Positions 766 to 18,126 of a DNA stretch of 34,047 nucleotides are shown piece by piece. This stretch comes from a virus. How positions within the stretch are numbered: the first letter of the stretch is position 1; each line of letters opens with the position of its first letter. The notes under the pieces were generated by a model that worked only from the letters and a program-made list of their open reading frames with translations, made no database searches and was not told the DNA's origin. The stretch is taken from IMG/VR virus record IMGVR_UViG_3300042888_001239, positions 1 to 34,047 of that record; one strand, 5' to 3'. The position numbers and the translations under genes were made by a program.

Positions 766-1004
766 GCGACAATCTTCACATTACTGTTGATCAGGTAAAC
801 CACCCTGTTCATTACACATCAGATCCTTCTGGGGTTGAATGTATTCAAATTACTAGACATAGAAACTTTAATATTGGTAATGCATTCAAGTATTTGTGGA
901 GAGCAGGACTTAAAGATGAAGCAAAAACTATTCAAGATTTAGAAAAAGCAATCTTCTATATTAAAGATGAAATAAATAGATTAGAGGGAAAGTATGTCAA
1001 GTGA
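762..1004 (+). CDS. DUF3310 family protein (T7 gp1.7-like)
   Basis: This 80-residue protein carries the DUF3310 signature in order: VNHPVHYTS, SGVECIQIT, FNIGNAFKYLWRAG, then DLEKAIFYIKDEI. DUF3310 is common in phages and includes T7 gp1.7, a thymidylate kinase-like enzyme; whether this shorter member is a kinase is not shown. The start is set by an ATGA overlap with the upstream stop, and the end overlaps terS by 11 nt. It probably belongs to the same transcript as the terminase genes. Confidence 0.88.
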   Translation: MSDNLHITVDQVNHPVHYTSDPSGVECIQITRHRNFNIGNAFKYLWRAGLKDEAKTIQDLEKAIFYIKDEINRLEGKYVK

Positions 1005-3295: not shown

Positions 3296-3337
3296 CTTTC
3301 TGGTCATAGGATCAGATAAAACTAACAAGGAGAAGGA

Positions 3338-4498
3338 ATGAATTCATTTAAGAAGATTGCCCTTGCCGTGGCTGCAGCCATGACTTTGGGAACAGTCGTA
3401 GCAGCGCCTGCTAATGCTAACACTATGTCAGTTGTAGCAACAACATGGAAAGCATCGCTATCGCCTGCAGATTATGATGCTCCAGCAACTGTTGGCACAT
3501 CACTAACAACTGCAATCGTACGTCCAGTACCTGCAGACAATACAATTGACAACACAGATGTTGTTCGATTGGTAGCAACAGTTACTGCTGGAACAAGCGT
3601 AACTGCAACTGCTACAAACGCAACAATCGTTTCAGCATTGCACTCAACTGCTGCACCAGTAGGAGCATCGTCAGGATCATCATCTTTGACAGTTGCAACT
3701 GGCACAGGAACAACTGCAACATTTTTTGTTTACACAAAGACAACAGCAATTGGAACAGTTGTAATTACAAATGGTCCAGTTACAGTTACATACTACGTAC
3801 AAGGTACTGCTGGTCTAATCAATAACCTATCAGTTTCTGCACCTGCTTCAGGTGCTGCTGGTACAAAGCAAGACATCCTAGTTACAGCAACAGACGTATT
3901 TGGAAACAAGATTTCTGGTGCCTCAATTGCTGCAACTGTATTTGCTGCTACAGCAACAGTTGACACAGCAACAGTAACAACTGGTGCTACACTAACAGAC
4001 TTTGGAGTTGCAAAGTTTACTGCAACACTTCCAACTACTGGTACACGCTCACTAATTATGTTTGCGCCAACAGTAACAAGTCCAGTGTCAACAACTGCTG
4101 CAGATGTAGTTGGTCTAACTGCTCGTACACTTGCACCATTTGCAGAGATTGCAGTTCGTGATCTAGTATCAGAACTTGCTGCTGAAAAGGCTGCAAAGGA
4201 TGCAGCACTTGCTGCTAAGGCTGTTTCAGATGCTGCAGTTCTAAAGGCTGCTGCAGATGCAGTTGCTGCTAAGGCTGCTGCTGATGCTGCACTCGCAGCA
4301 GAGAAGGCTGCTTCAGCAAAGGCACTAGCAGATGCTAAGGTAGCATCAGATGCTGCTCTTCTTGCTAAGGATGCACAGATTGCTAAATTGACTGCAGATA
4401 ATGCAGCAGCAATTAAGTCACTTAAGGATGCTTTCAATAAGTTGGCTCGCCAATGGAATGCAAAGAATCCGAAGGCACGAGTTACTCTAGTTAAGTAA
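3338..4498 (+). CDS. Secreted Ala/Thr-rich protein with Ig-like part and coiled coil
   Basis: This 386-residue protein has a Sec signal peptide (KK, hydrophobic core, then an A-N-A site at residues 25-27). A Thr/Val/Ala-rich beta region follows, with an Ig-like segment beginning about residue 165 (TATDVFGNKISGAS). A long Ala-Lys coiled coil occupies about 270-360, and the basic tail ends PKARVTLVK. It has a good ribosome site (AAGGAGAAGGA). Base composition is visibly less AT-rich than the neighbours and resembles host surface proteins, suggesting transfer from an actinobacterium. It probably coats or crosses the host envelope; no enzyme motif was seen. A terminator follows directly. Confidence 0.85.
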   Translation: MNSFKKIALAVAAAMTLGTVVAAPANANTMSVVATTWKASLSPADYDAPATVGTSLTTAIVRPVPADNTIDNTDVVRLVATVTAGTSVTATATNATIVSALHSTAAPVGASSGSSSLTVATGTGTTATFFVYTKTTAIGTVVITNGPVTVTYYVQGTAGLINNLSVSAPASGAAGTKQDILVTATDVFGNKISGASIAATVFAATATVDTATVTTGATLTDFGVAKFTATLPTTGTRSLIMFAPTVTSPVSTTAADVVGLTARTLAPFAEIAVRDLVSELAAEKAAKDAALAAKAVSDAAVLKAAADAVAAKAAADAALAAEKAASAKALADAKVASDAALLAKDAQIAKLTADNAAAIKSLKDAFNKLARQWNAKNPKARVTLVK

Positions 4499-4514
4499 CC
4501 AAAACTTAAAGTTT

Positions 4515-4545
4515 GGGAGTCAGGAAACTGGCTCCCTTTCTTTTT
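4515..4545 (+). terminator. Rho-independent terminator with GAAA loop
   Basis: GGGAGTCAG pairs with CTGGCTCCC around a GAAA tetraloop (9 bp, one G-T pair), followed by TTTCTTTTT. It lies 16 nt after the stop of the secreted Ala-rich protein and separates it from the PA14 gene. Confidence 0.9.
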
Positions 4546-4569
4546 GTCTGCATGTCTAATTGAATAATT

Positions 4570-4578
4570 TGATATAAT
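4570..4578 (+). promoter_or_regulatory. Extended -10 promoter for the PA14 protein gene
   Basis: TGATATAAT is an extended -10 box (TG at 4570-4571, TATAAT at 4573-4578). It lies just after a terminator and gives a leader of about 17 nt with AGAGGAGAG (4584-4592) before the TTG start at 4602. No convincing -35 was found at 17 nt. Confidence 0.65.
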
Positions 4579-4601
4579 AGGCAAGAGGAGAGTCCACCAT
4601 T

Positions 4602-6713
4602 TTGAAAAAACTCTTGCGTATATTTACAGTTTCTACCCTTGCCTTTGCTTGGCTTTTGATAGCCCCTACAGAGGCTAATTCTGACGACCCTATAACAGTA
4701 GGTGCACAGAGGATAGAAGCCCTTAATGAGAAGGTCTCAGACCTTAATGATAGTGCTGAATTAGTCTCACTTATTGGCGTGGCACAAGATAAGTATGACG
4801 CTGCCGTAATTTCCAGGGACAACAAAATTTCAGCAGAAGAAACATATGTCCAAGCGGTAGATACAGAAGCAGAATCCCTATCAACCCTCAATACAAAAAT
4901 ATCAAACCTTTCTTCAGCCCAGTCCTCAGTAGATGGACAAACAGCCACAGTTGCTTTAGCCTTAACACACAAAGATGATGCTCAGGAAGCATTGGCAATA
5001 GCCAACCTTAATCTTCAAACCACACAATCTAATATGCAGGCTGCTGGAGAAACAGGTTTGGCATACACTGTTTATACTCTTGTTAGACAGGGTAATGTTG
5101 CTACCCCAGGATCTGTTCTTTGTTCTGGTACTTGGAACTCAAGCCACATGCAACTACCAGTTTGTGGTAACAGATACGAAAACTTTATAGTTAAGTTCAC
5201 TGGTCAAATAACAGTACCGTCTTGGTTCACATCAACCTACTTTGCAGGATATACAGATGATGGGTTTAGAATGTATGTTGATGGGCAACTTGCCGTTGAT
5301 AACTGGGTAGAGCAAGGGGCAAGATGGAGTAATTATTCTCCAGTATATGATGTTAGTGAAGACAAGACTTTAGATGTAGAAATATGGTGGTATAACGGCG
5401 GAGGCCCAGGTTCATATCACCTTGGATGGGCAATTCCTGGAGGATGGACTGGAGCAGGATGCGACTATGCTGGAAATCCAAGAGTATGGGGACAAAACTT
5501 TAGTTGTAATCTTGGAACATTTTCTTCTGGCCCAGGTGCAACACAGGAACAGATAGATGACTACAACGAAGCACTTGCAGCAAGAACATCTGCTTTGGCA
5601 GTATATAGCGATAAGTTATCTGTTTACAATCAGGAGGTTGCAACACTAAATGAATTACAAGATGACTTAGAATTAGCGCAGGAAGAAAAAGATGCTGCAG
5701 AAAGCACATATGAAATTGCAGAACTAAACACTGCTTTGACATTAGCAGCAAAAGATTTATCAATTGAAAACTACAATAATGCAATTGAAGATATGAATGA
5801 TGCTATTACTGCTGCTGAAGAAGAGTACGAGGCTCAATGGGATTTTGAAGAAAAGCAGAGAATTAATGCTGCTATTGCTACTGCTCTTGCAAACCAACCA
5901 CAGCCAACACCTACACCAGAGGTTACAGTAGAGCCTACACCAGAACCAACTCCAGAACCATCAACTGAGCCAACAGAGGAACCTACTGATGAACCTACCC
6001 CAGAGCCTTCTCCAGAGCCTACCAATGAGCCTACAGAAGACCCTAAGCCAGAGCCAACTGAAGAAACAACTCCAGAACCAGAACCAACAGATGAGCCAGT
6101 TGTAGACCCAACAGAAGAGCCAACTCCTGAACCACAACCAGAACCAACTCCAGAACCAGAACCAACAACTAATCCTGAAATAGAAGATGAAGAGTTGGCT
6201 GAACTTATTCCTGAAAAAGGTACAGGAACAGCAGAAGATTTATCTGGAGTTATTGCTAACCTTACAAGCAAGGATAATAAGTTAGTTACACTTTCACCTG
6301 AGCAAGTAGCAGCAGTTAGCCAAACCCTAAAGTCTTTGACACAAGAAGCAAAGGCAGAGATTGCTGGAGACCTTGGTATCAAGGCATCAGAAGTTGCACA
6401 GATTGCTGAGCAGATGAAAGATAACCCAGCACTTGCCTCAGCATTTGTTGAGTTCGCAGAAAGAGCGGGGGATGCAGGAGAAACCCCAATGCCATTTACA
6501 TTAGCAGATGCAGTAACAGAAGTACAAACAGAAGCATTCTTGGCAGATCCATTGGGAGCAATTACAAACATAGATTTTGAAAAAATTCTAAACCCAGCGG
6601 AATGGGGAAAGGATATGACTGACGACCAAAGAGAAAAGGTTCAGGAAGTCATAATTCCAGTAATTATAGTATCAAACATTGTTAGTTCTGTTATGTCAAT
6701 AAGGAGGTTATAA
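4602..6713 (+). CDS. Exported PA14-domain protein with Pro-Thr-Glu repeats and C-terminal membrane segment
   Basis: This 703-residue protein starts at TTG with a strong upstream AGAGGAGAG. In order it has a signal peptide (1-25), a coiled coil (about 35-145) and a PA14-like beta domain (about 150-310, with YFAGYTDDGFRMYVDGQ). A second coiled coil spans about 312-430, a (T/E)PxPEP repeat spans about 432-525, a helical region follows, and the end is hydrophobic (VIIPVIIVSNIVSSV near 683-700). PA14 domains often bind carbohydrates, and the repeat resembles a wall-spanning linker. The most likely role is a phage-encoded adhesin or surface shield held in the host membrane. A virion role is less likely given the signal peptide. 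Confidence 0.85.
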   Translation: MKKLLRIFTVSTLAFAWLLIAPTEANSDDPITVGAQRIEALNEKVSDLNDSAELVSLIGVAQDKYDAAVISRDNKISAEETYVQAVDTEAESLSTLNTKISNLSSAQSSVDGQTATVALALTHKDDAQEALAIANLNLQTTQSNMQAAGETGLAYTVYTLVRQGNVATPGSVLCSGTWNSSHMQLPVCGNRYENFIVKFTGQITVPSWFTSTYFAGYTDDGFRMYVDGQLAVDNWVEQGARWSNYSPVYDVSEDKTLDVEIWWYNGGGPGSYHLGWAIPGGWTGAGCDYAGNPRVWGQNFSCNLGTFSSGPGATQEQIDDYNEALAARTSALAVYSDKLSVYNQEVATLNELQDDLELAQEEKDAAESTYEIAELNTALTLAAKDLSIENYNNAIEDMNDAITAAEEEYEAQWDFEEKQRINAAIATALANQPQPTPTPEVTVEPTPEPTPEPSTEPTEEPTDEPTPEPSPEPTNEPTEDPKPEPTEETTPEPEPTDEPVVDPTEEPTPEPQPEPTPEPEPTTNPEIEDEELAELIPEKGTGTAEDLSGVIANLTSKDNKLVTLSPEQVAAVSQTLKSLTQEAKAEIAGDLGIKASEVAQIAEQMKDNPALASAFVEFAERAGDAGETPMPFTLADAVTEVQTEAFLADPLGAITNIDFEKILNPAEWGKDMTDDQREKVQEVIIPVIIVSNIVSSVMSIRRL

Positions 6714-6717
6714 TAGG

Positions 6718-7173
6718 ATGGTTATGAATAAAGTTAAAGAAAGTATAAAGGTGATTTTAGGCAAAATAAAGATGCCTAAAATTACAATGCCTAAAATAAA
6801 AATACCAAGCATTAAAATCCCAAGCATCAAAATGCCAAAGTTTAAGATGCCAAAGGTAAATATTCCAAAAATATCTATTCCAAAGATTAAAATACCAACA
6901 ATAGATATGGAAAAACTAAAAGCATATGGTGCAAAGTATTTTCCTATTATTAAAAAAGTATTTGAAATTTTGGTAAAGATTGTCAAAGGATTTATTTCAT
7001 GGCTTTGGAAAGCAGTTAAAGAAAGTATTGCTCAGGTTTGGACACTACTTGGATTCTTTATTGCATGGCTTACCCTTACAGGGACAGCACAGCAGGTAGT
7101 TGGAATGGCAACATTAATTGCTACTGCTATCTGGCTTGTAACAATTCCATTGCGTGAAGAAAAAGAAGATTAG
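6718..7173 (+). CDS. Membrane protein with nine KIxxP pentad repeats
   Basis: This 151-residue protein has nine consecutive five-residue units at residues 16-60 (KIKMP, KITMP, KIKIP, SIKIP, SIKMP, KFKMP, KVNIP, KISIP, KIKIP), each ending in Pro. An amphipathic Lys-rich helix and two hydrophobic helices follow (about 84-115 and 120-145), with an EEKED tail. AAGGAGG (6701-6707) lies 10 nt before ATG 6718, and the start is 4 nt after the PA14 stop. The repeat is extended, basic and hydrophobic, loosely like AHNAK/periaxin repeats. The function is unknown; binding to membrane or acidic cell-wall polymer is a guess. Confidence 0.82.
   Translation: MVMNKVKESIKVILGKIKMPKITMPKIKIPSIKIPSIKMPKFKMPKVNIPKISIPKIKIPTIDMEKLKAYGAKYFPIIKKVFEILVKIVKGFISWLWKAVKESIAQVWTLLGFFIAWLTLTGTAQQVVGMATLIATAIWLVTIPLREEKED
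6763..6897 (+). repeat. 15-bp tandem coding repeat (KIxxP units)
   Basis: Nine degenerate 15-bp units encode the pentads of the membrane protein. Codons differ between units (ATT/ATA/ATC for Ile, CCT/CCA for Pro), so selection acts on the protein pattern rather than on recent DNA duplication. Confidence 0.8.
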
Positions 7174-7186
7174 GATAGTTATTGAT

Positions 7187-7396
7187 ATGAAAAAAGTAGC
7201 AGCCCTTTTATCAGCAACAGTATTATCATTAATGTTAACATCTTGCGGAGTGCTAGAAAATAGATATCGTTATGATTGCCATGACCCTGAAAACTGGTAT
7301 AATAAAGAGTGTAATCCACCAATCTGCCAAGCAGATGGATTATGCACTAAAGACATACTTGGTTTTGATCCTACGGAGGGTAGCGTAAATGAGTAA
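7187..7396 (+). CDS. Small lipoprotein
   Basis: This is a 69-residue product from ATG 7187. An in-frame GTG at 7154 would put a charged extension before the signal, so the ATG is preferred. The signal peptide has a lipobox LTSC (Cys at residue 20). The mature part has four more Cys: YDCHDPENW, KECNPPICQ and GLCTKD. From memory it resembles short lipoproteins of T4-like cyanophages; I know no function. It may be lipid-anchored at the outer face of the membrane and disulfide-bonded. It overlaps the next gene by 8 nt. Confidence 0.8.
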   Translation: MKKVAALLSATVLSLMLTSCGVLENRYRYDCHDPENWYNKECNPPICQADGLCTKDILGFDPTEGSVNE

Positions 7397-7721
7397 AAAA
7401 AGATATACATCAGATGAACTAGACGCACGACTAAAGTTTTTTCTTGGTATGACACTAGGAACAATCTTGTTGTTTACAACAATGGGAATTTTGTATGCCC
7501 TTGTTTTTGTAACACAACCAATTGGAGAGCAATCAGAAAATGACAAGATGTTCTTTAATGTGTTGTCATCTGTTGCAACATTTATTACTGGCACACTTGC
7601 TGGTATTTTGATTGGAAAAAATGGCGGGGGTTCAGATAACTCACAGCCTAATCAAGTATCTGAGCCTATGACTAATAGCGTTGTAGATGATCTTGATGAA
7701 ATTGATGATTTTATTGAATAA
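7389..7721 (+). CDS. Two-helix membrane protein
   Basis: This 110-residue protein has a charged N-terminus (SKKRYTSDELDAR), two hydrophobic helices (about 17-42 and 57-77), a GGG linker and an acidic tail (DDLDEIDDF). It starts inside the 3' end of the lipoprotein gene at GAGGGTAGCGTAA-ATG, so the two are probably made together. A structural or holin-like role is possible but unproven. Confidence 0.75.
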   Translation: MSKKRYTSDELDARLKFFLGMTLGTILLFTTMGILYALVFVTQPIGEQSENDKMFFNVLSSVATFITGTLAGILIGKNGGGSDNSQPNQVSEPMTNSVVDDLDEIDDFIE

Positions 7722-7733
7722 ATAATACATTAC

Positions 7734-7762
7734 TTGACACCCCTTCTGGGAACTGGTATACT
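7734..7762 (+). promoter_or_regulatory. Strong sigma70-type promoter for the proteasome-like gene
   Basis: TTGACA (7734-7739), a 17-nt spacer, then TATACT (7757-7762). The predicted leader of about 24 nt contains GGGAGGGG before ATG 7793, so this message has a classical ribosome site, unlike many others here. Confidence 0.85.
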
Positions 7763-7772
7763 TAAATATACC
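7755..7772. promoter_or_regulatory. Palindrome over the -10 box (possible operator)
   Basis: GGTATA, then CTTAAA, then TATACC: perfect 6-bp arms around a 6-bp centre that is itself nearly symmetric. It covers the -10 box and the start site, where a dimeric repressor would block transcription. No cognate repressor is identified. Confidence 0.4.
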
Positions 7773-7792
7773 TAATCTGGGAGGGGTTTGTA

Positions 7793-8317
7793 ATGACTTG
7801 CATTGTTGCTCTACGCCATGAAGAAAAAGTTTATATGGCTGGAGATCGTGGAGCATCAGATGACGGAGTTATTCTCTCACTTCAATCACCAAAGGTTTGG
7901 AAAGTTGGACCGTACTTAATTGGTTATGCTGGATCAATGGACGGTGACAGAATCAGACACAATTTCAGACCATCAGCACCTAACATTAAAGATACAGACA
8001 AGTTTATGCACACTAAGTTTATTAAAGAACTTCGTGAATTTTACAATGAGTTTTGGATTGATACATCTAAAGAAGGTGAACTTAGTTTAATCATTGGTAT
8101 TCGTGGAGAAATCTACGAACATAGTTCTGGAGATATGTCTTTATCTAAATATTCTTTGCCATATATGTCTATTGGTTCTGGTTCAGAATATGCATATGGA
8201 GTTTTGTATGCAACAGATAAACAAAAAAATGCAAGGAACAGGGTAATGCAAGCAGTAAATGCTGCAATTAAATTTAACCCATCTTGCATGGGTCCAGTTG
8301 ACATCATAAGTGCCTAG
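7793..8317 (+). CDS. Proteasome/HslV-like Ntn hydrolase
   Basis: This 174-residue protein begins Met-Thr-Cys-Ile-Val. After Met removal Thr1 would be the nucleophile, with D17 (AGDRGASD) and K33 (SPKVW) at exactly the positions of the proteasome beta catalytic Asp17 and Lys33. Later motifs also match the fold: YAGSMDGD and SIGSGSEYAYG. Related HslV-like proteins occur in phages. It is a cytoplasmic peptidase that should form rings, but no HslU/Mpa-type unfoldase is in the window, so it may work alone, with a host ATPase, or in prohead maturation. Confidence 0.88.
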   Translation: MTCIVALRHEEKVYMAGDRGASDDGVILSLQSPKVWKVGPYLIGYAGSMDGDRIRHNFRPSAPNIKDTDKFMHTKFIKELREFYNEFWIDTSKEGELSLIIGIRGEIYEHSSGDMSLSKYSLPYMSIGSGSEYAYGVLYATDKQKNARNRVMQAVNAAIKFNPSCMGPVDIISA

Positions 8318-8326
8318 GAGTATACT
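8298..8326 (+). promoter_or_regulatory. Leaderless promoter for the 73-aa acidic protein
   Basis: TTGACA (8298-8303), 17 nt, TATACT (8321-8326), then exactly 6 nt to ATG 8333. The start site is predicted on the A of ATG. It lies inside the end of the upstream hydrolase gene. Confidence 0.85.
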
Positions 8327-8332
8327 TAGTAT

Positions 8333-8554
8333 ATGAACGAAGAATTTGAAGAAATACTAAAGGATATTCAGAATATAGAGTCAAACTTTGATGAGTTTGA
8401 GATTTGGCTTGAAAACGGAATTGAACGGGGATGGGTAACTGAACCGTTCTGTAATACTCATGAGGGTGATCCCTACATGACAGAAGAAGAAGCAGCAGAG
8501 TGGGAAGAGGGCGGAGACCCTTGCCAAGTAGTAATTAAAATCAAAGAAAACTAA
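8333..8554 (+). CDS. Acidic 73-aa protein, actinophage type
   Basis: This strongly acidic protein contains ENGIERGWV, then PFCNTHEGDPYM, then GGDPCQVVIKI. From memory the CxTHxGxP...GxDPC pattern is frequent in actinobacteria and their phages, without a known function; two Cys and one His could bind metal. Translation is predicted from a leaderless mRNA. The subtilase gene follows after 11 nt. Confidence 0.8.
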   Translation: MNEEFEEILKDIQNIESNFDEFEIWLENGIERGWVTEPFCNTHEGDPYMTEEEAAEWEEGGDPCQVVIKIKEN

Positions 8555-8565
8555 CAGGGAGAAAA

Positions 8566-9444
8566 ATGAAGAAAATAGCAGTGGGAATTATTGCAGTATT
8601 AAGTTTAGTATTGCTACAACCAGTACAAGCACAAACAGCAAAGTCAATTGTTATTATTGATACAGCAATTGATTCATCTATTCCACAACTAAAGGAAAAA
8701 ATTGTACAAGAAGTTTGTATTCTTGACCGAATGCTTTGTCCTAATGGAACAAGATTTCAAGAAGGTTTAGGATCGGCAACGCTTACGCCTGCACAAATTA
8801 AGGCTAATGGATTTGACCATGGAACAAGCATGGCTCTTATTGCAAACAAAGTTAATCCAGATGCAAACATTATCTTTATTAGAATTGTTGGAATGAGGGC
8901 TAATGGAACTCAAGACAACTATAATGTTTTTGATATAGAGAAGGCTCTTTCTTGGGTTATTTTAAACAAAGAAAAGTATAACATTTCTTCTGTATCAGCA
9001 TCAATGGGCAGCAATATCGTTGGCACTGGGCCAAAGTATTGTCCTACAAACGCAACACATTCTGGACTTGTTGGAAATATTGATAAACTTTTATCATTAA
9101 ATGTTCCAACAATTTTTGCTGCAGGAAACAACAGAGACTATAAGAGAATTAACTTCCCAGCATGTATTGCACAGGCAGTGGCAGTAGGTGGAGCAACAGA
9201 AGGCAACACCATGTCTCCATTCTCAAATGCTGCTCCAGAAGTTGACTTCTATTTTCTTGAGGTGTTTAATGTTAATAATAAGACAGTAAGAGGAACTTCA
9301 GCAAGTGCTGCAGCATTTTCTGCTTACTGGGCTAAAAATTACAAGGGTACCTATCAGTCAACATATGACTACTTCGTATCAATATCTAAGAAAGCAGTAG
9401 GAAGAACAACTGCAACTGATAGGCTTGTAAGTCTTTTAGGTTAA
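8566..9444 (+). CDS. Secreted subtilisin-like serine protease (S8 family)
   Basis: This 292-residue protein has a signal peptide (1-22, ending VQA-Q) and then a compact subtilase domain with the full triad: D32 (VIIDTAID), H85 (FDHGTSMA) and S245 (RGTSASAA). The oxyanion residue is N188 (FAAGNN). Four Cys (51, 58, 159, 200) could form two disulfides. There is no obvious propeptide: the catalytic Asp lies only ten residues after the signal site, unlike most subtilases. A CAGGGAGAAAA site precedes the ATG. It probably cuts proteins at or outside the host membrane. Confidence 0.92.
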   Translation: MKKIAVGIIAVLSLVLLQPVQAQTAKSIVIIDTAIDSSIPQLKEKIVQEVCILDRMLCPNGTRFQEGLGSATLTPAQIKANGFDHGTSMALIANKVNPDANIIFIRIVGMRANGTQDNYNVFDIEKALSWVILNKEKYNISSVSASMGSNIVGTGPKYCPTNATHSGLVGNIDKLLSLNVPTIFAAGNNRDYKRINFPACIAQAVAVGGATEGNTMSPFSNAAPEVDFYFLEVFNVNNKTVRGTSASAAAFSAYWAKNYKGTYQSTYDYFVSISKKAVGRTTATDRLVSLLG

Positions 9445-9451
9445 TTGGTTT

Positions 9452-9524
9452 TGGTCTGTAACTCAGTTGGTAGAGTGCCGAACTGTTAATTCGGAAGTCG
9501 CAGGATCGTGACCTGCCAGACCAG
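9452..9524 (+). tRNA. tRNA-Asn (GTT)
   Basis: Acceptor TGGTCTG pairs with CAGACCA, with discriminator G as usual for Asn. The anticodon arm is CCGAA-CTGTTAA-TTCGG with anticodon GTT. The T arm GCAGG/CCTGC has the non-standard loop ATCGTGA. A full CCA end is not encoded. It starts 8 nt after the subtilase stop. Confidence 0.9.
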
Positions 9525-9529
9525 CAAAA

Positions 9530-9603
9530 GCGAGTGTTGCATAATGGTAGTGCACCATCCTTCCAAGTTGGTTGTGCCAGTTCGATTCTGGTCACTCGCT
9601 CCA
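9530..9603 (+). tRNA. tRNA-Gly (TCC)
   Basis: Acceptor GCGAGTG pairs with CACTCGC. The anticodon loop CTTCCAA gives TCC, reading GGA; its stem has one T-T mismatch. The T arm is GCCAG-TTCGATT-CTGGT. Discriminator T and encoded CCA complete the 3' end. It lies 5 nt after tRNA-Asn. Confidence 0.9.
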
Positions 9604-9604
9604 A

Positions 9605-9660
9605 GGGCCTGGCTTATAGTGGTTAGGACATCATCTTTTTATGATGGAAGCAAGTGTTGA
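9605..9660 (+). pseudogene. Broken tRNA (5' half, TTT anticodon)
   Basis: D-arm-like sequence (ATAGTGGTTAGGAC) is followed by a good anticodon arm, TCATC-TTTTTAT-GATGG, with anticodon TTT (Lys). The T arm is lost after GTGTTGAAT and no sequence matches the 5' acceptor GGGCCT. It sits 1 nt after tRNA-Gly and just before the very AT-rich carbamoyltransferase gene, so it may mark a recombination point. Confidence 0.45.
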
Positions 9661-9701
9661 ATTTTATTTAAGGATCTTTAATAAAATAATATAATTTATG
9701 G

Positions 9702-9707
9702 TATACT
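9702..9707 (+). promoter_or_regulatory. Possible -10 box for the carbamoyltransferase gene
   Basis: TATACT lies 30 nt before ATG 9738. The leader has TAGGGGGATAA as ribosome site. The only -35 candidates (TTTAAT or TTAATA near 9677) have 18-19 nt spacing and are weak. Confidence 0.45.
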
Positions 9708-9737
9708 GATTTATAGTTTATAGGGGGATAAAATAAA

Positions 9738-11381
9738 ATGAATAAAATACTTGGAATTTCAGTAATGCATGATTCTTCTATTTGTATTTTTGAAAATGGG
9801 AAAATAGTTAACTTTTTAAAAGAAGAACGTTTTTCAAAAAATAAAAGAGATATGTATCCAGCAAAATCTGTTTTTGAAATAGACTTAAAGAATGAACCAG
9901 TTGATCTTGCATATTCAGCACCAATCAAAGAAGATCATGTAAGGGATATAGTACATAGAATACTAAGCAAAAATTTTAAAATTGATAAAGTTTCTGACTA
10001 TTCAGATGAACATCATTTAGTTCACGCAAATTTAGCATTTTATAATAGTGGTTTTGATCAAGCCCTTGTTTTTGTTATTGATAGAAATGGTTCAGTCTTT
10101 GGAAACTCTGTCAGGGAATCTGAAAGCGTTTATTTAGCATCTTATCCAAATAACTTTAAAGCATTATGTAAAAATTATTGGCTATTTAGTAATTATGGAC
10201 ATGAGTTTGTTGATTCATTAAAAGTTAATGATCCAGATTGTGATTTTAATGCTAAGTCAATGTTTGGAATTGTAAAGGTTTATGAAAGCGCAACTACTCT
10301 AATTGGACAACATGCCCTTGAAAATGGCAAAACAATGGGTCTTTCAGCATATGGAGACAAAAACAAGAGTTATCCAAAACTATTTGGTGATGGTTTTATT
10401 CCTTTAGATTACCATTTTGGCCATGAGGATTTTATGGATTTAAGATCTGCCAACTATATAAAATTAAAAGATAAATTAACAAAAAATCTAACTGCTGAAA
10501 ATTATCAAGAATACGCAGACTATGCCTGGAATGTTCAAAAAGAAACTCAAGAGGCAGTTGCGTCAATGATTAATATGTATGTAGAAAAAACAGGTGTTAA
10601 AAATGTATGCATCACTGGTGGATACGGTTTAAATGTTGTTGCAAATCATTATTATATTACACAATTTCCAGAAATTAATTTCTTTTTTGAGCCATTAGCA
10701 GATGATAGTGGAAATAGCATTGGCGCAGCAATGAAATATTATCGTGATACAACGTTCGATTCTACTATTAATAAATTAGAGCATACATTTTTTAATGGTA
10801 AAAATTATTTGCTTGATAATATTAATGGATTAGATGTTTCTATATCCGATGTTGCAAAACTAATTTCTGATGGTAAAAGTATTGCAGTGTATAATGGACT
10901 TGCAGAGGCTGGTCCAAGAGCACTTGGAAATAGATCAATTCTTTTTGATTGTAGAGATAAAGATGCAAAAGAAAAAGTAAATAGAATTAAAAAAAGAGAA
11001 TGGTATCGTCCATTTGCTGCAATGGTATTAGAAGAAGATTCTAATGAGTATTTTGAAATGGGTAAAATTAAAAAAAGTGAATTCATGACAATTTCGTTTC
11101 CAGTTAAAGATCATGCAATTAAAAAAATACCAGGGGTCGTCCACATTGACAATACTTGCAGAATACAAACAGTTGACAATTCTAATCCAATAATTTTTAA
11201 TCTGTTAAATGAATTTAAAAAAATAACAAAAATGGGAATATTACTTAATACTAGTTTTAACCTTGCTGGTAATCCACTGGTTGAAACGCCAGAAGATGCT
11301 TTTTATACACTAAAAAATAGTGAATTAGACTATGTTTGGTTTCCAGAAATATCAAAACTTGTATCTAAAAAAGATATTTAA
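9738..11381 (+). CDS. Carbamoyltransferase (NodU/CmcH/TobZ family)
   Basis: This 547-residue two-domain enzyme has the family motifs. The N-terminal Kae1-like part contains GISVMHDSS, EERFSKNKRD and EHHLVHANLAFY; the middle has ITGGYGLNVVAN and EPLADDSGNSIGAA. The C-terminal domain has EAGPRALGNRSI, EWYRPFAAMV and LLNTSFNLAGNPLVETP. Family members move the carbamoyl group of carbamoyl phosphate to a hydroxyl through carbamoyl-adenylate. Known substrates include sugars and antibiotics and, in phages, 5-hydroxymethylcytosine. The gene is more AT-rich than its neighbours. The substrate here is unknown: modified DNA or a glycan made by the nearby glycosyltransferases are the main options. Confidence 0.93.
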   Translation: MNKILGISVMHDSSICIFENGKIVNFLKEERFSKNKRDMYPAKSVFEIDLKNEPVDLAYSAPIKEDHVRDIVHRILSKNFKIDKVSDYSDEHHLVHANLAFYNSGFDQALVFVIDRNGSVFGNSVRESESVYLASYPNNFKALCKNYWLFSNYGHEFVDSLKVNDPDCDFNAKSMFGIVKVYESATTLIGQHALENGKTMGLSAYGDKNKSYPKLFGDGFIPLDYHFGHEDFMDLRSANYIKLKDKLTKNLTAENYQEYADYAWNVQKETQEAVASMINMYVEKTGVKNVCITGGYGLNVVANHYYITQFPEINFFFEPLADDSGNSIGAAMKYYRDTTFDSTINKLEHTFFNGKNYLLDNINGLDVSISDVAKLISDGKSIAVYNGLAEAGPRALGNRSILFDCRDKDAKEKVNRIKKREWYRPFAAMVLEEDSNEYFEMGKIKKSEFMTISFPVKDHAIKKIPGVVHIDNTCRIQTVDNSNPIIFNLLNEFKKITKMGILLNTSFNLAGNPLVETPEDAFYTLKNSELDYVWFPEISKLVSKKDI

Positions 11382-11409
11382 TTTAATAAATATAAAAATT
11401 ATAGTTATG

Positions 11410-11418
11410 TGATATAAT
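11410..11418 (+). promoter_or_regulatory. Extended -10 promoter and leader of the Hsp20 gene
   Basis: TGATATAAT, no clear -35. The leader of about 50 nt holds an inverted repeat, TGTACC (11424-11429) and GGTACA (11441-11446), then GAAAGGGG before ATG 11476. Confidence 0.6.
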
Positions 11419-11475
11419 AATATTGTACCTGCCGATTGGGGGTACATTAACTTATTCGCTTGAAAGGGGAATAAA

Positions 11476-11904
11476 ATGGTAGTAACACATGCAATGGATC
11501 TATTCAATGATCCTTTTTTTATTGGCTTTAACAGAGAGTTAGGCCGCTTAAGTAACGCACATAAAACAAACTCACAAACATATCCTCCATATGATCTTCT
11601 TAAACTAGATGAAGATACATATAGAATCTCTTTGGCTGTTGCTGGATTTTCCAGGGAAAATATTGATATCTCAGTAGACAATGGAACTCTTATTATTAAG
11701 GGTGAAATCGTAGAGGTAGTAGATGCTGAAGTAGTTCATAAGGGTATTGCTGGTCGTAAATTTGTACGATCATTTGCTCTTGGAGAATATATGGAAGTGA
11801 CTGGTGCAGAAATGAAGGATGGTATGCTACATATTAATGTAGACCGTATTATTCCTGAAGATAAAAAGCCAAAGACTATTGAAATCAAACTTGCTAAAAA
11901 GTAG
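11476..11904 (+). CDS. hsp20: Small heat-shock protein, Hsp20/alpha-crystallin family
   Basis: This 142-residue protein has an alpha-crystallin domain at about 38-140: YRISLAVAGFSRENIDISV, then NGTLIIKGE, then GRKFVRSFALGE, MKDGMLHINV and a C-terminal TIEIKL strand. It should be an ATP-independent holdase that keeps unfolded proteins soluble, as proposed for the hsp20 gene common in T4-like cyanophages. The N-terminal arm is short and there is no clear I-x-I tail. It has its own promoter and an SD of AAAGGGG. Confidence 0.94.
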   Translation: MVVTHAMDLFNDPFFIGFNRELGRLSNAHKTNSQTYPPYDLLKLDEDTYRISLAVAGFSRENIDISVDNGTLIIKGEIVEVVDAEVVHKGIAGRKFVRSFALGEYMEVTGAEMKDGMLHINVDRIIPEDKKPKTIEIKLAKK

Positions 11905-11919
11905 TATATAGGCTATAAT
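11891..11919 (+). promoter_or_regulatory. Promoter for the endolysin gene
   Basis: TTGCTA (11891-11896), 17 nt, TATAAT (11914-11919). The leader of about 50 nt carries TTAGGAGATAAAA before ATG 11977. It overlaps the 3' end of hsp20, so lysis can be timed apart from it. Confidence 0.8.
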
Positions 11920-11976
11920 TGTATAAGAGACCTAGGCATGTCTTTATAAACTGCCCCTTAATATTAGGAGATAAAA

Positions 11977-12780
11977 ATGGCAGCAAAAGGTAGTTTAGAG
12001 TCAATCATTGAGGTTGCAAAAAAAGAAATTGGAACAATTGAAGGTCCAAAAGATAATGAAACAAAGTATGGCAAGTGGACTGGTGTTAATTTTCAGCCAT
12101 GGTGCCAATCATTTGTTTCTTGGTGTGCCTTTACTTCTGGATTAGATGCAAAGAAGTATCCAAAGTCTGCATCAACAGTTGCAGCAGCAGACTGGTTTAA
12201 GAAGAATGATCGTTGGTCAGATGCACGTAACGATGACCCAACTCCAGGAGACTGGATTTATTTTGATTTTCCAGACGATGGTGTAAACCGTATTTCACAT
12301 GTTGGTATTTGTATTAAAAATAATGGAGATGGAACTATTCAAGTTATTGAGGGAAATACTTCAGGAACTGCAAAAGGAGATCAGCGCAACGGAGGAATGT
12401 GCGTAGAGAAAACTCGTGCATATGTAAAGAACAATAAGGCTAAGTTAGTTAATGCTGTTGTTGGTTGGGGTCGTCCAGTTTATACTGGCGAAGAAAACCT
12501 TCCGCTTCTTTCCAAGGTTGGATCATCTGATGCTCCAGTTAAAGCATCTGCTCCAGTATCTTCAACACCTTCTGCACCTGCAGTTAAGAAAGAGTTTAAG
12601 CAGTTTAAAGAAGGCGCAAAAGGTTCACCTGTTAAAAAGATTCAAGAAGCACTTGGCTTAAAGGCTGATGGAGTTTTTGGTCCAGGAACATCTAAGGCAG
12701 TTAAAGATTTTCAATCTAAGTCTAAACTTCCAGTAACTGGAATTGTAGATTTAAAAACATATAAGGCTATTTTGAAGTAA
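11977..12780 (+). CDS. Endolysin: CHAP amidase/peptidase plus peptidoglycan-binding domain
   Basis: This 267-residue protein has an N-terminal CHAP domain with catalytic C43 (PWCQSFVSWC), H108 (ISHVGIC) and a polar residue near E125/N127 (VIEGNT). A Ser/Pro/Ala linker (about 180-203) leads to a PG_binding_1 domain (about 208-266: EGAKGSPVKKIQEAL, DGVFGPGTSKAVKDFQ). It cuts peptide or amide bonds of host peptidoglycan at lysis. It has no signal peptide, so a holin is needed; candidates lie at 18590-19041. Its stop overlaps the next start (TAATG). Confidence 0.93.
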   Translation: MAAKGSLESIIEVAKKEIGTIEGPKDNETKYGKWTGVNFQPWCQSFVSWCAFTSGLDAKKYPKSASTVAAADWFKKNDRWSDARNDDPTPGDWIYFDFPDDGVNRISHVGICIKNNGDGTIQVIEGNTSGTAKGDQRNGGMCVEKTRAYVKNNKAKLVNAVVGWGRPVYTGEENLPLLSKVGSSDAPVKASAPVSSTPSAPAVKKEFKQFKEGAKGSPVKKIQEALGLKADGVFGPGTSKAVKDFQSKSKLPVTGIVDLKTYKAILK

Positions 12781-12965
12781 TGCCAGTATATGAATACAAA
12801 TGTACAGGACAATGTTCTGAAATTGTAATCAAGCAAAGATCTATTAAAGATGCCGATCCAGGGTATGAGTGTCAAACTTGCACTCTACCACTGGAACGTG
12901 TATACTCTAATGTAACAGCAGTATTCAACGGTAGTGGATTTTATTCCACTGATAACAGAAAGTAG
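12780..12965 (+). CDS. FmdB-like zinc ribbon protein
   Basis: This 61-residue protein starts MPVYEYKCTGQCSE and has a second knuckle, YECQTCTLPLER, matching the FmdB regulatory family (MPxYEYxC...CxxC). The function is unknown in general, with metal binding likely. It starts in TAATG overlap with the endolysin stop, so translation is coupled. Confidence 0.88.
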   Translation: MPVYEYKCTGQCSEIVIKQRSIKDADPGYECQTCTLPLERVYSNVTAVFNGSGFYSTDNRK

Positions 12966-12968
12966 CGG

Positions 12969-12974
12969 TATACT
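12969..12974 (+). promoter_or_regulatory. Leaderless -10 box for the DUF7455-like gene
   Basis: TATACT directly touches an ATG at 12975, but a second in-frame ATG at 12981 lies exactly 6 nt after the box, the spacing seen elsewhere here. This selects 12981 as start. The -35 is weak (TTCCAC, 19 nt). Confidence 0.55.
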
Positions 12975-12980
12975 ATGAAC

Positions 12981-13229
12981 ATGACAATGACAAAAGAAGT
13001 TGTTCAAGAAGAATGGATTCTAAATGCAACAGACAGATGTGATGCTTGTGCAGCAGAAGCACTAGTAAAAGTAACTGGATTATCTGGAGATTTAATGTTT
13101 TGTGGACATCATTACAACAAGATTATGGATAATAAAGAAGGCTACAAGAAAATGATTTCTTTTGCACTTTCAGTTGTTGATGAACGACATAAACTTATTG
13201 AAAACAAGTCAAAGGGGCAGGATTACTAA
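12981..13229 (+). CDS. DUF7455-like zinc protein
   Basis: This is an 82-residue product from ATG 12981. The core TDRCDACAAEALVKV, then GDLMFCGHHYNK, matches a short family widespread in actinobacteria and their phages (DRCDxCGAxA...LxFCxHH). Two Cys pairs or Cys with His-His should bind zinc. The second Cys-flanking Gly of the family is replaced (CDACAAE). The C-terminus is helical. The function is unknown; it is a useful host-lineage marker. Its stop overlaps the SNase start. Confidence 0.82.
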   Translation: MTMTKEVVQEEWILNATDRCDACAAEALVKVTGLSGDLMFCGHHYNKIMDNKEGYKKMISFALSVVDERHKLIENKSKGQDY

Positions 13230-13636
13230 TGTTTGAATATTATGTAAAGAAGGTAGAAGACGTAGTAGATGGAGATACCATTGACGTTGTTATTGATTTA
13301 GGGTTTGATATTATGTTTGCATCTCGTGTAAGACTTGCTGGTATTGATACGCCTGAGTCTCGTACTAAGGACAAGGCTGAGAAGGCTCTTGGTCTTGAGT
13401 CTAAGGAGTATTTAAAGAAGCACCTTAAGGATGCCAAGTCTGTTGTAATTAAGACTGAGAAGATGAACTCATCTGAAAAGTTTGGACGCATTCTTGGTTG
13501 GATATATGTTAATGGAGACACAGTATCTCTAAACGATATGATGATTAATGATGGATATGCCTGGGGATATATGGGTGACACAAAGGTTAAAGACTTTGAA
13601 GCACTTAAAAAGGCTAGACTAAAATCAGGTAAGTAA
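13229..13636 (+). CDS. Thermonuclease-like (SNase family) nuclease
   Basis: This 135-residue protein has an OB-fold nuclease core: DGDTIDV (14-20), RVRLAGIDTPESR (33-45) and KFGRILGWIYV (84-94). R35, D40, E43 and R87 fall at the same numbers as in the staphylococcal enzyme, so the calcium-dependent active site looks complete. There is no signal peptide, so it acts in the cytoplasm, possibly on host DNA or RNA. TAATG overlaps occur at both ends. Confidence 0.92.
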   Translation: MFEYYVKKVEDVVDGDTIDVVIDLGFDIMFASRVRLAGIDTPESRTKDKAEKALGLESKEYLKKHLKDAKSVVIKTEKMNSSEKFGRILGWIYVNGDTVSLNDMMINDGYAWGYMGDTKVKDFEALKKARLKSGK

Positions 13637-13860
13637 TGGATGCAAAAAGTCAAGCACTTCTTGATCATTTAATTAATCAGGGTGCTATTCAAATATCAGA
13701 CATTGATATTAATGGAGAGATTGTTTATTCTATTACTGATAAACTACAAGAGGTTCATCCAGAGTTATATTTAGAACTTAGAGATGAGTTTGAGCATAAT
13801 ATGTTTGAAATGATAAATCAGGGTCCAAAAATTATGACTTGGAGAATAAGAGCCAAATGA
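13636..13860 (+). CDS. Paralogue A of a small phage protein family
   Basis: This 74-residue protein has LLDHLINQGAIQISDID, then YSITDKLQEVHPELY, then FEMINQG. It aligns along its length with the first 65 residues of the 14107 gene (LIKNLILEGALEVAGVD, YTITPKMQEVMPDMY, LNLWEKG). It lacks the C-terminal extension of that protein. The function is unknown. It overlaps the thioredoxin start (ATGA). Confidence 0.8.
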   Translation: MDAKSQALLDHLINQGAIQISDIDINGEIVYSITDKLQEVHPELYLELRDEFEHNMFEMINQGPKIMTWRIRAK

Positions 13861-14120
13861 AATCAATTCTTTATTTTACTGCAGAATGGTGTAACCCATG
13901 TAAAAAAACAAAGCCAATTGTTGAGCAGTTAAATACTGAGCAAATTATGGCTAAATTTTTTATAGTTGATGTTGATTCTGATATTGAAATGACTAAAGAT
14001 TTTGAGATTAGGTCTGTTCCTACTTTTGTAGTAATGAAAGATAATACTGAAATCCATCGTGTGACTGGTGCACAAACAAGGCAGCAGTTAGAGGAGTTAA
14101 TTAGATATGAACAGCAATGA
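13857..14120 (+). CDS. Thioredoxin-like protein
   Basis: An 87-residue thioredoxin fold from ATG 13857 (ATGA overlap; an upstream in-frame start at 13839 lies inside the previous gene). Active site WCNPC at residues 11-15, and cis-proline loop RSVPTF. It should reduce disulfides or act as a thiol cofactor. It is shorter than host thioredoxin because the first strand and helix are trimmed. It sits between two paralogous genes. Confidence 0.92.
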   Translation: MKSILYFTAEWCNPCKKTKPIVEQLNTEQIMAKFFIVDVDSDIEMTKDFEIRSVPTFVVMKDNTEIHRVTGAQTRQQLEELIRYEQQ

Positions 14121-14436
14121 AGATGAACTAATCAAAAATTTAATACTTGAAGGTGCTTTAGAAGTTGCTGGAGTAGATTCAGAGACTAATGAACTTTTAT
14201 ACACTATTACTCCAAAGATGCAAGAAGTCATGCCAGATATGTATGAAGATCACCTAACTCAAGTAAATAGAGATCTTTTAAACCTATGGGAAAAAGGGTA
14301 TGTTAATATTGATTTTTTATTGGCAGAGCCATCAGTCACTATATCTGAAAAAGGTCTTAATAAGGCTGAGGTTGCTAAACTATCCAAGCATGAAATTTGG
14401 GCACTAGAAGAGGTCAAGAGACTATTAAAAGGGTAA
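14107..14436 (+). CDS. Paralogue B of a small phage protein family
   Basis: This 109-residue, mostly helical protein has an N-terminal 65-residue part clearly related to the 13636 gene, plus a tail with VTISEKGLNKAEVAKL and HEIWALEEVKRLL. The YxITxKxQEVxPxxY core is common to both. It starts 14 nt inside the thioredoxin gene. The function is unknown. Confidence 0.8.
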   Translation: MNSNEDELIKNLILEGALEVAGVDSETNELLYTITPKMQEVMPDMYEDHLTQVNRDLLNLWEKGYVNIDFLLAEPSVTISEKGLNKAEVAKLSKHEIWALEEVKRLLKG

Positions 14437-14440
14437 AGTC

Positions 14441-14449
14441 TGATATAAT
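14441..14449 (+). promoter_or_regulatory. Leaderless extended -10 promoter
   Basis: TGATATAAT with TATAAT at 14444-14449, then 6 nt (CAGTAT) and ATG 14456. No good -35, but the TGn extension compensates. Confidence 0.7.
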
Positions 14450-14455
14450 CAGTAT

Positions 14456-15034
14456 ATGATAAAAGAAGGCGACTTTGTTATGGGCTCAACATCTGAAGGT
14501 GTTGTGCATGGCGTTGTAGAGCACATTATGAATGAAGGTGGAATCCTTGGTACCCCTGGATCAGAGTATGCCCTGGTTTCAATGCCACCAGACAATCCAG
14601 CAATGTCTGTTAGAATTTATAAAGAAGAAGATGGCAAGTGGGAAGCAACAGCCTATAGCATTGGAATGATGTATAAAAATGCACAAGTTGCAGATATCAA
14701 CAACCACACCATGGAAGATGATGATATGGATTCAGAGGTTGCTATGGCAATGTACGATTCATCAATTGGTAAATCACAAGAAATGGAAGATGAAATGGAA
14801 AAAGCAAAAAAGCCTAACTATGGTGAAATGATTCAGCCACGTCGTGGTGGATCAACACCTTCAAACCCACGCCTTTATGCAAGAGTTGTGCAGGCAGCAA
14901 AAGATAAATTTGATGTGTATCCATCTGCAGTTGCAAATTCTTGGGTAGTACAAGAATACAAGCGCCGTGGTGGAACATATAAGTCTGAAAAAGAATTAGG
15001 ATCAGATAATTTTTGGAATGGATTTTTAAAATAA
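14456..15034 (+). CDS. Phage protein with beta-barrel N-terminus and DUF5872-like C-terminus
   Basis: This 192-residue protein opens with a small beta barrel (GDFVMGSTSEGVVHGVVEHI). An acidic linker (about 90-115, EDDDMDSEV) follows, then a conserved C-terminal block: NPRLYARVVQAAKDKF, VYPSAVANSWVVQEYKRRGG. The last block is frequent in phages and is usually called DUF5872-like; from memory it occurs in prohead or capsid-associated proteins. No function is proven. Leaderless start; TAATG overlap with the next gene. Confidence 0.75.
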   Translation: MIKEGDFVMGSTSEGVVHGVVEHIMNEGGILGTPGSEYALVSMPPDNPAMSVRIYKEEDGKWEATAYSIGMMYKNAQVADINNHTMEDDDMDSEVAMAMYDSSIGKSQEMEDEMEKAKKPNYGEMIQPRRGGSTPSNPRLYARVVQAAKDKFDVYPSAVANSWVVQEYKRRGGTYKSEKELGSDNFWNGFLK

Positions 15035-16699: not shown

Positions 16700-16984
16700 A
16701 TGAAGCAGCATTTATGGAAAGATCAAGCAGCGTGTCTTGGTCTTGATACTAATATATTTTTTGATAAGTATGAAGACAGTGTAGATGTACGCCCAATTGT
16801 AGATTCAATGTGCCAAAGATGTCCAGTATCAAAGGTTTGCTTTGCTAATGGAGTTTCTGGTAAAGAGTATGGTGTGTGGGGTGGAGTGTTTCTTGAACTT
16901 GGAAATATATCTAGAGAGTTTAATAAGCATAAAACTAAGCAAGACTGGGCTAATACTTGGCAAGCATTGACAATGGAGAAATAA
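16700..16984 (+). CDS. whiB: WhiB-like Fe-S transcription regulator
   Basis: This 94-residue protein has four Cys in WhiB spacing: C12, C38, C41, C47 (C-x25-C-x2-C-x5-C). The family turn GVWGG is at 58-62. Wbl proteins bind a [4Fe-4S] cluster and dock on sigma factor region 4; phage versions such as mycobacteriophage TM4 WhiBTM4 down-regulate the host and cause septation defects and superinfection exclusion. The C-terminal DNA-binding part is short (REFNKHKTKQ). The family is essentially restricted to actinobacteria and their phages, so it fixes the host group. Confidence 0.95.
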   Translation: MKQHLWKDQAACLGLDTNIFFDKYEDSVDVRPIVDSMCQRCPVSKVCFANGVSGKEYGVWGGVFLELGNISREFNKHKTKQDWANTWQALTMEK

Positions 16985-17215
16985 TTGTACACTGATCAAA
17001 TGCGTAGAGCCTTTCACTCTGTAGTACCTCCAAAGGGTTTTGCTATAGAGTTAATTGATAATGAACACTTTTTAACTATTAAGTTAAATGAACTTAAGTT
17101 TGCAAAGATGGTTCATGACGATAAAATACAGGCTCTTCAATATGTTTTGAATTTAAAAAAAGCATTGGAAATGGAAGGGGCTATCGTCCTAGTAACAAGA
17201 GAGGCAATAAAATGA
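16985..17215 (+). CDS. 76-aa hypothetical protein
   Basis: TTG start at 16985 directly after the whiB stop, 7 nt behind GGAG. The product (RRAFHSVVPPKGF, then LTIKLNELKFAKM, then IQALQYVLNLKKALEMEG) is alpha/beta without a known family. It may be a partner of WhiB by position only. It overlaps the glycosyltransferase start by 4 nt. Confidence 0.65.
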   Translation: MYTDQMRRAFHSVVPPKGFAIELIDNEHFLTIKLNELKFAKMVHDDKIQALQYVLNLKKALEMEGAIVLVTREAIK

Positions 17216-18126
17216 AAATTTTTGTATCTATTGCATCTTATCGTGATCCAGAACTTCAATGGACAATTAAAAGTGCTATTGCAAATGCAAATAATCCAGA
17301 CAATCTATATTTTGGTGTTGTTCATCAGGGAGTTGATTCAGAACTGTTTGATATTCAGGAGATTAAAAACATATCTATAACTAAAATGCATCCAAAAGAA
17401 GCAAGAGGTGCAGGATATGCAAGAGCAAAAGCAATGGAGTTATACTGTGGACAAGAGTATTTTCTTCAAATTGATTCACACACTAGATTTGTTCCTGGTT
17501 GGGACTCTATATCTATTGATCAGTTGAACAGGGCTAAGAATATATCTGGACATAGTAGAGTTATGCTTTCATACTTTCCTGCCCCATTTGAGCCAGAAAG
17601 AGATGGCGGTATGTATTTAATTACAAACAACCCAAAAGTAAAGCCATATCCAACTAGACAAAAGATATCATTAAATAAAAGAAAGCAATGGACAGCAGAA
17701 AGATTTGAGTTTGAAGATAGAGCAAAAGAAAATCCAGAATTATCTCAAACAGTTCTTGGTGGCTTTATGTTTTCAGATGGCTCAATAGTAGAGGAAGTTC
17801 CATACGATCCAGATATTAGTTTCTTTGGTGAAGAGGTTTGTTTTGCTATGAGATCATGGACTAGAGGATGGGACATATATTCTCCTTCAAAGAATATCGT
17901 TTATCATTTTTATTCTCGTGGCGGGTACAGCAAAATATGGAAAGATAGAAATCTGCGTGGTATCTCTTGGAAAGAACTAGAAGAAATATCATATAAAAAA
18001 CAAAAAAGAATTCTTTGCGGTGAAGAGTCTGGAATCTTTGGTGCTGGTGATGTAAGAACACTTGAGGAGTATGAGATGTTTACTAATACTAACTTTAAAG
18101 ATTTTTATAGTTTGACAAACCTATAG
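17212..18126 (+). CDS. GlcNAc-transferase-like glycosyltransferase (GT60-type)
   Basis: This 304-residue GT-A enzyme has the PF11397 pattern: IFVSIASYRDPELQWTI (3-19), YFGVVHQG, GAGYARAKAME, then YFLQIDSHTRFVPGWD as the metal/sugar-nucleotide site. FFGEEVCFAMRSW follows as acceptor-side motif. Family members add GlcNAc to hydroxyproline or Ser/Thr in proteins such as Skp1. There is no membrane segment, so it acts in the cytoplasm, perhaps on a virion protein. First of eight glycosyltransferases in the window. Confidence 0.88.
   Translation: MKIFVSIASYRDPELQWTIKSAIANANNPDNLYFGVVHQGVDSELFDIQEIKNISITKMHPKEARGAGYARAKAMELYCGQEYFLQIDSHTRFVPGWDSISIDQLNRAKNISGHSRVMLSYFPAPFEPERDGGMYLITNNPKVKPYPTRQKISLNKRKQWTAERFEFEDRAKENPELSQTVLGGFMFSDGSIVEEVPYDPDISFFGEEVCFAMRSWTRGWDIYSPSKNIVYHFYSRGGYSKIWKDRNLRGISWKELEEISYKKQKRILCGEESGIFGAGDVRTLEEYEMFTNTNFKDFYSLTNL

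Follow-up and report, generated by a model that had tools for sequence, protein, structure and literature searches.

The gene at bp 9738–11381 (+ strand) of the window (the whole 34,047 bp stretch of viral DNA analyzed here, IMG/VR record IMGVR_UViG_3300042888_001239) almost certainly encodes, judging from its sequence and predicted structure, a class III (NodU/CmcH/TobZ-type) O-carbamoyltransferase, and very probably not one that acts on 5-hydroxymethylcytosine (5hmC) in DNA. The best reading is that the enzyme O-carbamoylates a sugar hydroxyl, on the virion or the host surface, and is tied to the phage's own glycosyltransferase cluster (17–28 kb); with the acceptor proposed from gene context, we put the probability of this reading at about 55%.

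The carbamoyltransferase gene and its product

The reading frame is complete (547 amino acids) and starts with ATG, with the sequence GGGGGAT upstream. Its matches to Carbam_trans_N (PF02543; E 7e-23) and Carbam_trans_C (PF16861; E 3e-56) are both above the curated cut-offs, and class III families are the only Pfam families above cut-off in this protein. Residues 3–539 match the full-length profile of PHROG_1601 ("Nol-like carbamoyltransferase"; E 1e-128), a family long known in cyanophages, to which this gene adds a new member from an actinophage. The first-pass annotation described a phage carbamoyltransferase with all of the NodU/CmcH/TobZ motifs here, and the reading frame, the two Pfam domains, PHROG_1601 and the catalytic residues all agree with it. 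The family is present in one copy in the window's record. The protein is 90, 84, and 63% identical to its counterparts in records L003, L004, and L018, respectively, and dN/dS against these three is 0.14–0.22 (dS to L018 is 1.7, near saturation); the gene is therefore maintained and is under purifying selection.

The Kae1-like half (PF02543; residues 1–345, bp 9738–10772, + strand; TsaD/Kae1 matches span residues 2–345) carries the catalytic residues. GdmN binds iron through H133, H137, D156, and D333 and uses H27 as its general base (PMC9633730); mapping from GdmN gives H92, H96, D115, and D323 as the iron ligands and H11 as the general base, and these five residues are invariant in a 52-sequence alignment. 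The YrdC-like half (PF16861; residues 373–536, bp 10854–11345, + strand) contains G397 and R399, which correspond by residue mapping to TobZ G421 and R423. An AlphaFold model of the 547 amino acid protein (mean pLDDT 94; 42 sequences) matches GdmN from end to end (Z 39.1, rmsd 2.2 over 499 residues) and also the other class III structures NovN (Z 38.2), TobZ (37.7), and VtdB (35.6), with residues 2–546 aligned. The next structural group, TsaD/Kae1 (Z 21.8), matches only the N-terminal part, and a fold search of viral proteins with the same model found nothing extra besides the annotated carbamoyltransferase of S-RIM44. It is these domains, catalytic residues and end-to-end fold match that argue for a class III O-carbamoyltransferase. 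TobZ, GdmN, NovN, and VtdB, which act on antibiotics, share with the window protein the domain layout, iron ligands, general-base histidine, fold (Z 36–39), G421, and R423. They differ from it in that TobZ, NovN, and VtdB have tryptophan at position 408, where the window protein has valine, and in that the GdmN and NovN chains are ∼670 residues long and have an extra C-terminal part which the window protein lacks.

Phage lineage, host, and gene position

The large terminase subunit (bp 1511–3295, + strand) shares 54% identity with its counterpart in Streptomyces phage Yaboi, which places the phage near the Stanwilliamsviridae, and it also resembles the terminases of other large actinophages. 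A WhiB-like regulator gene (bp 16700–16984, + strand; PF02467, E 1e-11) marks an actinobacterial host, and because of this gene and the terminase similarity to Yaboi the host is assigned to the actinobacteria. The low G+C content (28–42%) would fit low-GC freshwater Nanopelagicales, the exact host being inferred, and isolated Nanopelagicales phages carry whiB and glycosyltransferase genes (PMC10202952). The relative G002 (87.6 kb), whose carbamoyltransferase is 84% identical, is by inspection like Yaboi in having helicase, primase, DnaE, and recombinase genes ahead of the terminase gene. The records that match a carbamoyltransferase do not include Yaboi itself, and no Streptomyces phage is among the matches listed. 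Just after the terminase gene, the products of bp 3338–4498 and 4602–6713 (both + strand) have signal-peptide-like starts and are possibly secreted or attached to the virion; the latter has a PA14 domain and a Pro/Thr/Glu repeat region.

The carbamoyltransferase gene is flanked in the window by tRNA genes and an Hsp20 gene, with no sugar genes adjoining, and in the window, L004, and L018 it lies between a proteasome-like gene and the same downstream gene block. A PHROG_17480-like protein is encoded inside the glycosyltransferase cluster of the window (bp 26244–26963, − strand) and directly upstream of the carbamoyltransferase gene in L004 (bp 9127–9849, + strand). Some phages encode two different carbamoyltransferases (L024, bp 6494–8203 and 9974–11605; L028, bp 725–2428 and 2431–4089), one of them of the window type and the other having W408, as antibiotic enzymes do.

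Two types of phage carbamoyltransferase

That a virus-encoded member of this family makes 5-carbamoyloxymethylcytosine from 5-hydroxymethylcytosine, as the first-pass annotation stated, is correct; the sewage-phage (MetaGPA) enzyme carbamoylates 5hmC in DNA and RNA, as well as 5hmdCTP, in vitro (PMC8670742). A search with that enzyme finds isolated-phage relatives in Xp15, Effie, and Bacteroides phage BF503P1, and these four proteins make up the DNA type, in which the MetaGPA enzyme alone has been assayed and the other three are assigned by homology and context. All are phage-encoded class III superfamily members with the same catalytic residues as the window protein, but identity between the two types is only ∼23%. 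In a maximum-likelihood tree of 96 sequences (a quick method with SH-aLRT support only and some long branches) the four DNA-type proteins and the window protein lie on opposite sides of a branch with support of 100.

The TobZ residues W408, G421, and R423 were named as those best separating modified from unmodified contigs (PMC8670742), and the window protein has V, G, and R at these positions. G421 and R423 are kept in all 109 alignment rows outside the DNA type, where the R423 of bacterial and archaeal loci is partly so by construction (some were found by a pattern containing GNRSILFD) while the search patterns for viral loci did not contain GNRSILFD. The DNA-type rows have T423 in four of four and C421 in three of four. 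Position 408 was rejected as a discriminator, being aliphatic in both phage groups.

The two types also differ in the genes that accompany them. PF00303, the ThyA family, covers both thymidylate synthase and dCMP hydroxymethylase, and it has a match in all three DNA-type phage records (Xp15, Effie, BF503P1). In Xp15 a putative thymidylate synthase gene and a putative dCMP deaminase gene lie three and four genes from the carbamoyltransferase gene, and BF503P1 carries genes with the annotation deoxycytidylate 5-hydroxymethyltransferase. The window has no dCMP hydroxymethylase, as noted in the first-pass annotation, and a PF00303 search finds no ThyA-family gene in it or in three near relatives, all of them genome fragments. 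None is present in any of 30 viral records with a window-type enzyme (mostly fragments, with some near-duplicates), in the complete Yaboi genome, or in any of eight complete or genomic phage records with the window type (S-RIM44, S-CAM8, S-CAM1, S-SCSM2R, P-SSM2, S-SSM7, Mosig, and C48C1, the copies in the last two being more distant). The absence from these eight genomes indicates that the window-type enzyme is independent of a phage hydroxymethylase. A Tet/JBP route to hydroxymethyl bases gave no match above cut-off in 33 records, and three of the four sub-threshold matches overlap ordinary 2OG oxygenase matches. ThyX is absent from the window group and present in the left arm of Yaboi, seemingly outside the coverage of the fragments; an RNR search gave no match even in Yaboi, which has an annotated RNR, so its negatives say nothing about coverage.

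Sugar genes in the window and in related phages

The window phage has a nucleotide-sugar epimerase gene and several glycosyltransferase genes in the same genome as its carbamoyltransferase gene. This cluster (17.2–28.4 kb) begins 6 kb from the carbamoyltransferase gene and is mostly on the opposite strand. It starts with a GlcNAc-family glycosyltransferase (bp 17212–18126, + strand; PF11397, E 3e-60; PHROG_24687, glycosyltransferase), followed by a putative group 1-like glycosyltransferase (bp 19090–20124, − strand; Pfam below cut-off, PHROG_2170 E 2e-14) that is kept in G002, a protein (bp 20121–20975) without a match in the phage records, and a glycosyltransferase-like protein (bp 21815–22651, − strand; PHROG_2456, E 1e-8). 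Next are an NAD-dependent nucleotide-sugar epimerase/dehydratase (bp 22648–23649, − strand; PF01370, E 4e-40; PHROG_540), another glycosyltransferase-like protein (bp 23713–24366, + strand; PHROG_14945, E 3e-45), a small methyltransferase that may be a sugar O-methyltransferase (bp 24369–24905, + strand; PF13578 below cut-off, PHROG_21658 E 4e-22), and a PF13524 glycosyltransferase (bp 24907–25863, − strand; E 1e-21; PHROG_28745) with a homolog in G002. The last is an Anp1/PHROG_1574 glycosyltransferase-like protein (bp 27618–28436, − strand; PHROG_1574, of unknown function, E 6e-48; PHROG_34859, glycosyltransferase, E 1e-9; Anp1 below cut-off). The transferases first described as nearby are thus real glycosyltransferases, but they lie 6–17 kb downstream of the carbamoyltransferase gene and do not adjoin it. 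Several of the cluster genes are retained in similar order in G002.

An NDP-sugar epimerase gene is found in 14 of the 30 viral records with the window type (the window included) and in six of the eight complete genomes, as well as in G002 and G003, the relatives with 84% identical enzymes. It was not seen in the other 16 of the 30, many of which are fragments, nor in any of the three DNA-type phages or in Yaboi. The PHROG_1601 enzymes of cyanophages S-CAM8, S-MS29, S-SCSM2R, and P-SSM2 are full-length members of the same family with 35–40% identity and R423, and these phages resemble the window phage in having sugar and 2OG oxygenase neighbors and, in complete genomes, no ThyA-family gene; they differ from it in that the window phage has an actinobacterial host and its gene lies between tRNA genes and Hsp20. 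The cyanophage homolog is often found amid genes for heptose kinase/adenylyltransferase, phosphoheptose isomerase, epimerases, UDP-glucose dehydrogenase, and glycosyltransferases, clusters that have been termed LPS gene clusters and that earlier authors could not call functional (PMC3037559). The nearest bacterial homolog (51% identical and in the same subclade) is in Alcaligenaceae MAGs (L096 and L098), where, unlike the phage gene of the window, it lies on a bacterial contig with a polyketide synthase, an EryCIII-like glycosyltransferase, a 2OG oxygenase, and a sugar-type oxidoreductase. Together, the sugar genes of the window and of the related phages and this bacterial neighborhood suggest that the acceptor is the hydroxyl of a sugar or of a small molecule.

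Halogenase, 2OG oxygenase, and DUF6065-like genes

Trp_halogenase is found in 10 of the 30 window-type viral records and 2OG-FeII_Oxy_3 in 20, and neither is present in the three DNA-type phages. These enzymes are about as characteristic of the window-type phages as the sugar genes, which also fits peptide or small-molecule acceptors. Records L021 (bp 545–11301) and L023 (bp 6897–14958) have two or three Trp-type halogenase genes followed by the carbamoyltransferase gene, 2OG oxygenase genes, three DUF6065-like genes, and then tail genes, and the same kinds of genes are present in a different order in L019 (bp 2646–9086). A halogenase gene lies <3 kb from the carbamoyltransferase gene in five of seven nonredundant records (p ∼0.01 against random rotation) and a 2OG oxygenase gene in seven of 15 (p ∼0.04, likewise), and since the records are partly related this closeness is modest evidence of an association. 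The association keeps protein and small-molecule acceptors possible.

G002 has a Trp-type halogenase gene near the terminase gene (bp 55294–56751), ∼13 kb from the carbamoyltransferase gene, and also a 2OG oxygenase gene and a collagen-like fiber gene (bp 6744–7454). The window contains two DUF6065/PHROG_7084-like genes (bp 26939–27616 and 28412–29104, both − strand) whose relatives form three tandem copies near the tail genes in L021 and L023. A model of the former protein (pLDDT 72) matches the dUTPase fold, and the 50 PDB matches listed are dUTPases (Z 7.7–8.7). No mention of DUF6065 was found in the literature searched.

The acceptor of the carbamoyl group

In the proposed mechanism, carbamoyl phosphate and ATP would be converted to carbamoyl-AMP by the YrdC-like half, which is intact, and the Kae1-like half, likewise intact and equipped with the iron site and the general-base histidine, would transfer the carbamoyl group onto the hydroxyl of an acceptor. 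The acceptor would be the hydroxyl of a sugar (nucleotide sugar or glycan) made or transferred by the epimerase, glycosyltransferases, and methyltransferase encoded at 17.2–28.4 kb, and the carbamoylated glycan would be located on virion proteins or the host surface. Mycobacteriophages are reported to have glycosylated capsids, according to work cited in PMC11256854, which makes a virion sugar plausible. The sugar reading is uncertain, since the carbamoyltransferase gene does not adjoin the sugar cluster in the window. Of the two acceptors first proposed, 5hmC in DNA or a sugar, gene context favors the sugar. Three things count against DNA: the phylogeny, the residue at TobZ position 423, and the lack of a ThyA-family gene with the window type when all three DNA-type phages have one.

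Carbamoylation of 5hmC in the phage DNA or nucleotide pool, like that by the MetaGPA enzyme and with protection of the genome from restriction, is very unlikely here. It would draw on the shared superfamily, on the in vitro activity of a phage member (PMC8670742), on the aliphatic residue at position 408, and on the fragmentary state of the window and its nearest relatives, which leaves room for a hydroxymethylase elsewhere; against it are the fully supported separate branch, the low identity between types, R423 instead of T423, the lack of a ThyA-family gene in the 30 viral records, the eight complete genomes, and Yaboi, and the lack of a Tet/JBP match above cut-off in the 33 records searched. 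It is extremely improbable that the enzyme is of the aspartate/ornithine type and serves to raise pyrimidine production. Cyanophage homologs have been given that role in two papers, as PyrB or as the enzyme for the first step of the pyrimidine pathway (PMC10436341, PMC9146016), but that is the wrong class of enzyme: a class I identity is contradicted by the YrdC and Kae1 domains, the iron site, and the GdmN/NovN/TobZ fold that extends from residue 2 to 546.

A role in tailoring some free small molecule that is produced or diverted in the course of infection is possible though improbable. The closest solved relatives act on antibiotics, the nearest bacterial homolog adjoins a polyketide synthase and an EryCIII-like glycosyltransferase, and halogenases and oxygenases are frequent in the window-type phages. 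However, no PKS or NRPS core enzyme was recognized in the window or G002 by inspection and partial profile searches, and the gene is held at one locus across the phage lineage beside virion rather than pathway genes. Somewhat more doubtful is a cassette in which 2OG-Fe(II) oxygenases and Trp-type halogenases modify tail-fiber or other virion proteins and a hydroxylated side chain is carbamoylated. The gene neighborhoods of L021, L023, and L019, with tail genes beyond in the first two, the spacing of halogenase and 2OG oxygenase genes, and the halogenase, oxygenase, and fiber genes of G002 would agree with it, but the window has neither a halogenase nor a PF13640 oxygenase and the spacing statistics are modest and come from partly related records. 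To our knowledge, no member of the carbamoyltransferase superfamily acts on proteins. An equally speculative and broader idea is that in aquatic phages a cassette of Trp-type halogenase, carbamoyltransferase, 2OG oxygenase, and dUTPase-fold DUF6065-like genes beside the tail-fiber genes remodels virion proteins or glycans, and that the window carries a glycosyltransferase-rich version of it.

Two kinds of phage carbamoyltransferase can thus be recognized from sequence. The DNA (5hmC) kind has T423 and is accompanied by a hydroxymethylase-type gene; the aquatic kind has R423 and neighbors of the sugar, oxygenase, or halogenase type. To label the aquatic kind as DNA-modifying, or as pyrimidine biosynthesis in the manner of the two cyanophage papers, would mislead. 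If the sugar reading is true, a carbamoylated sugar on the virion or the host surface would be an unusual phage decoration.
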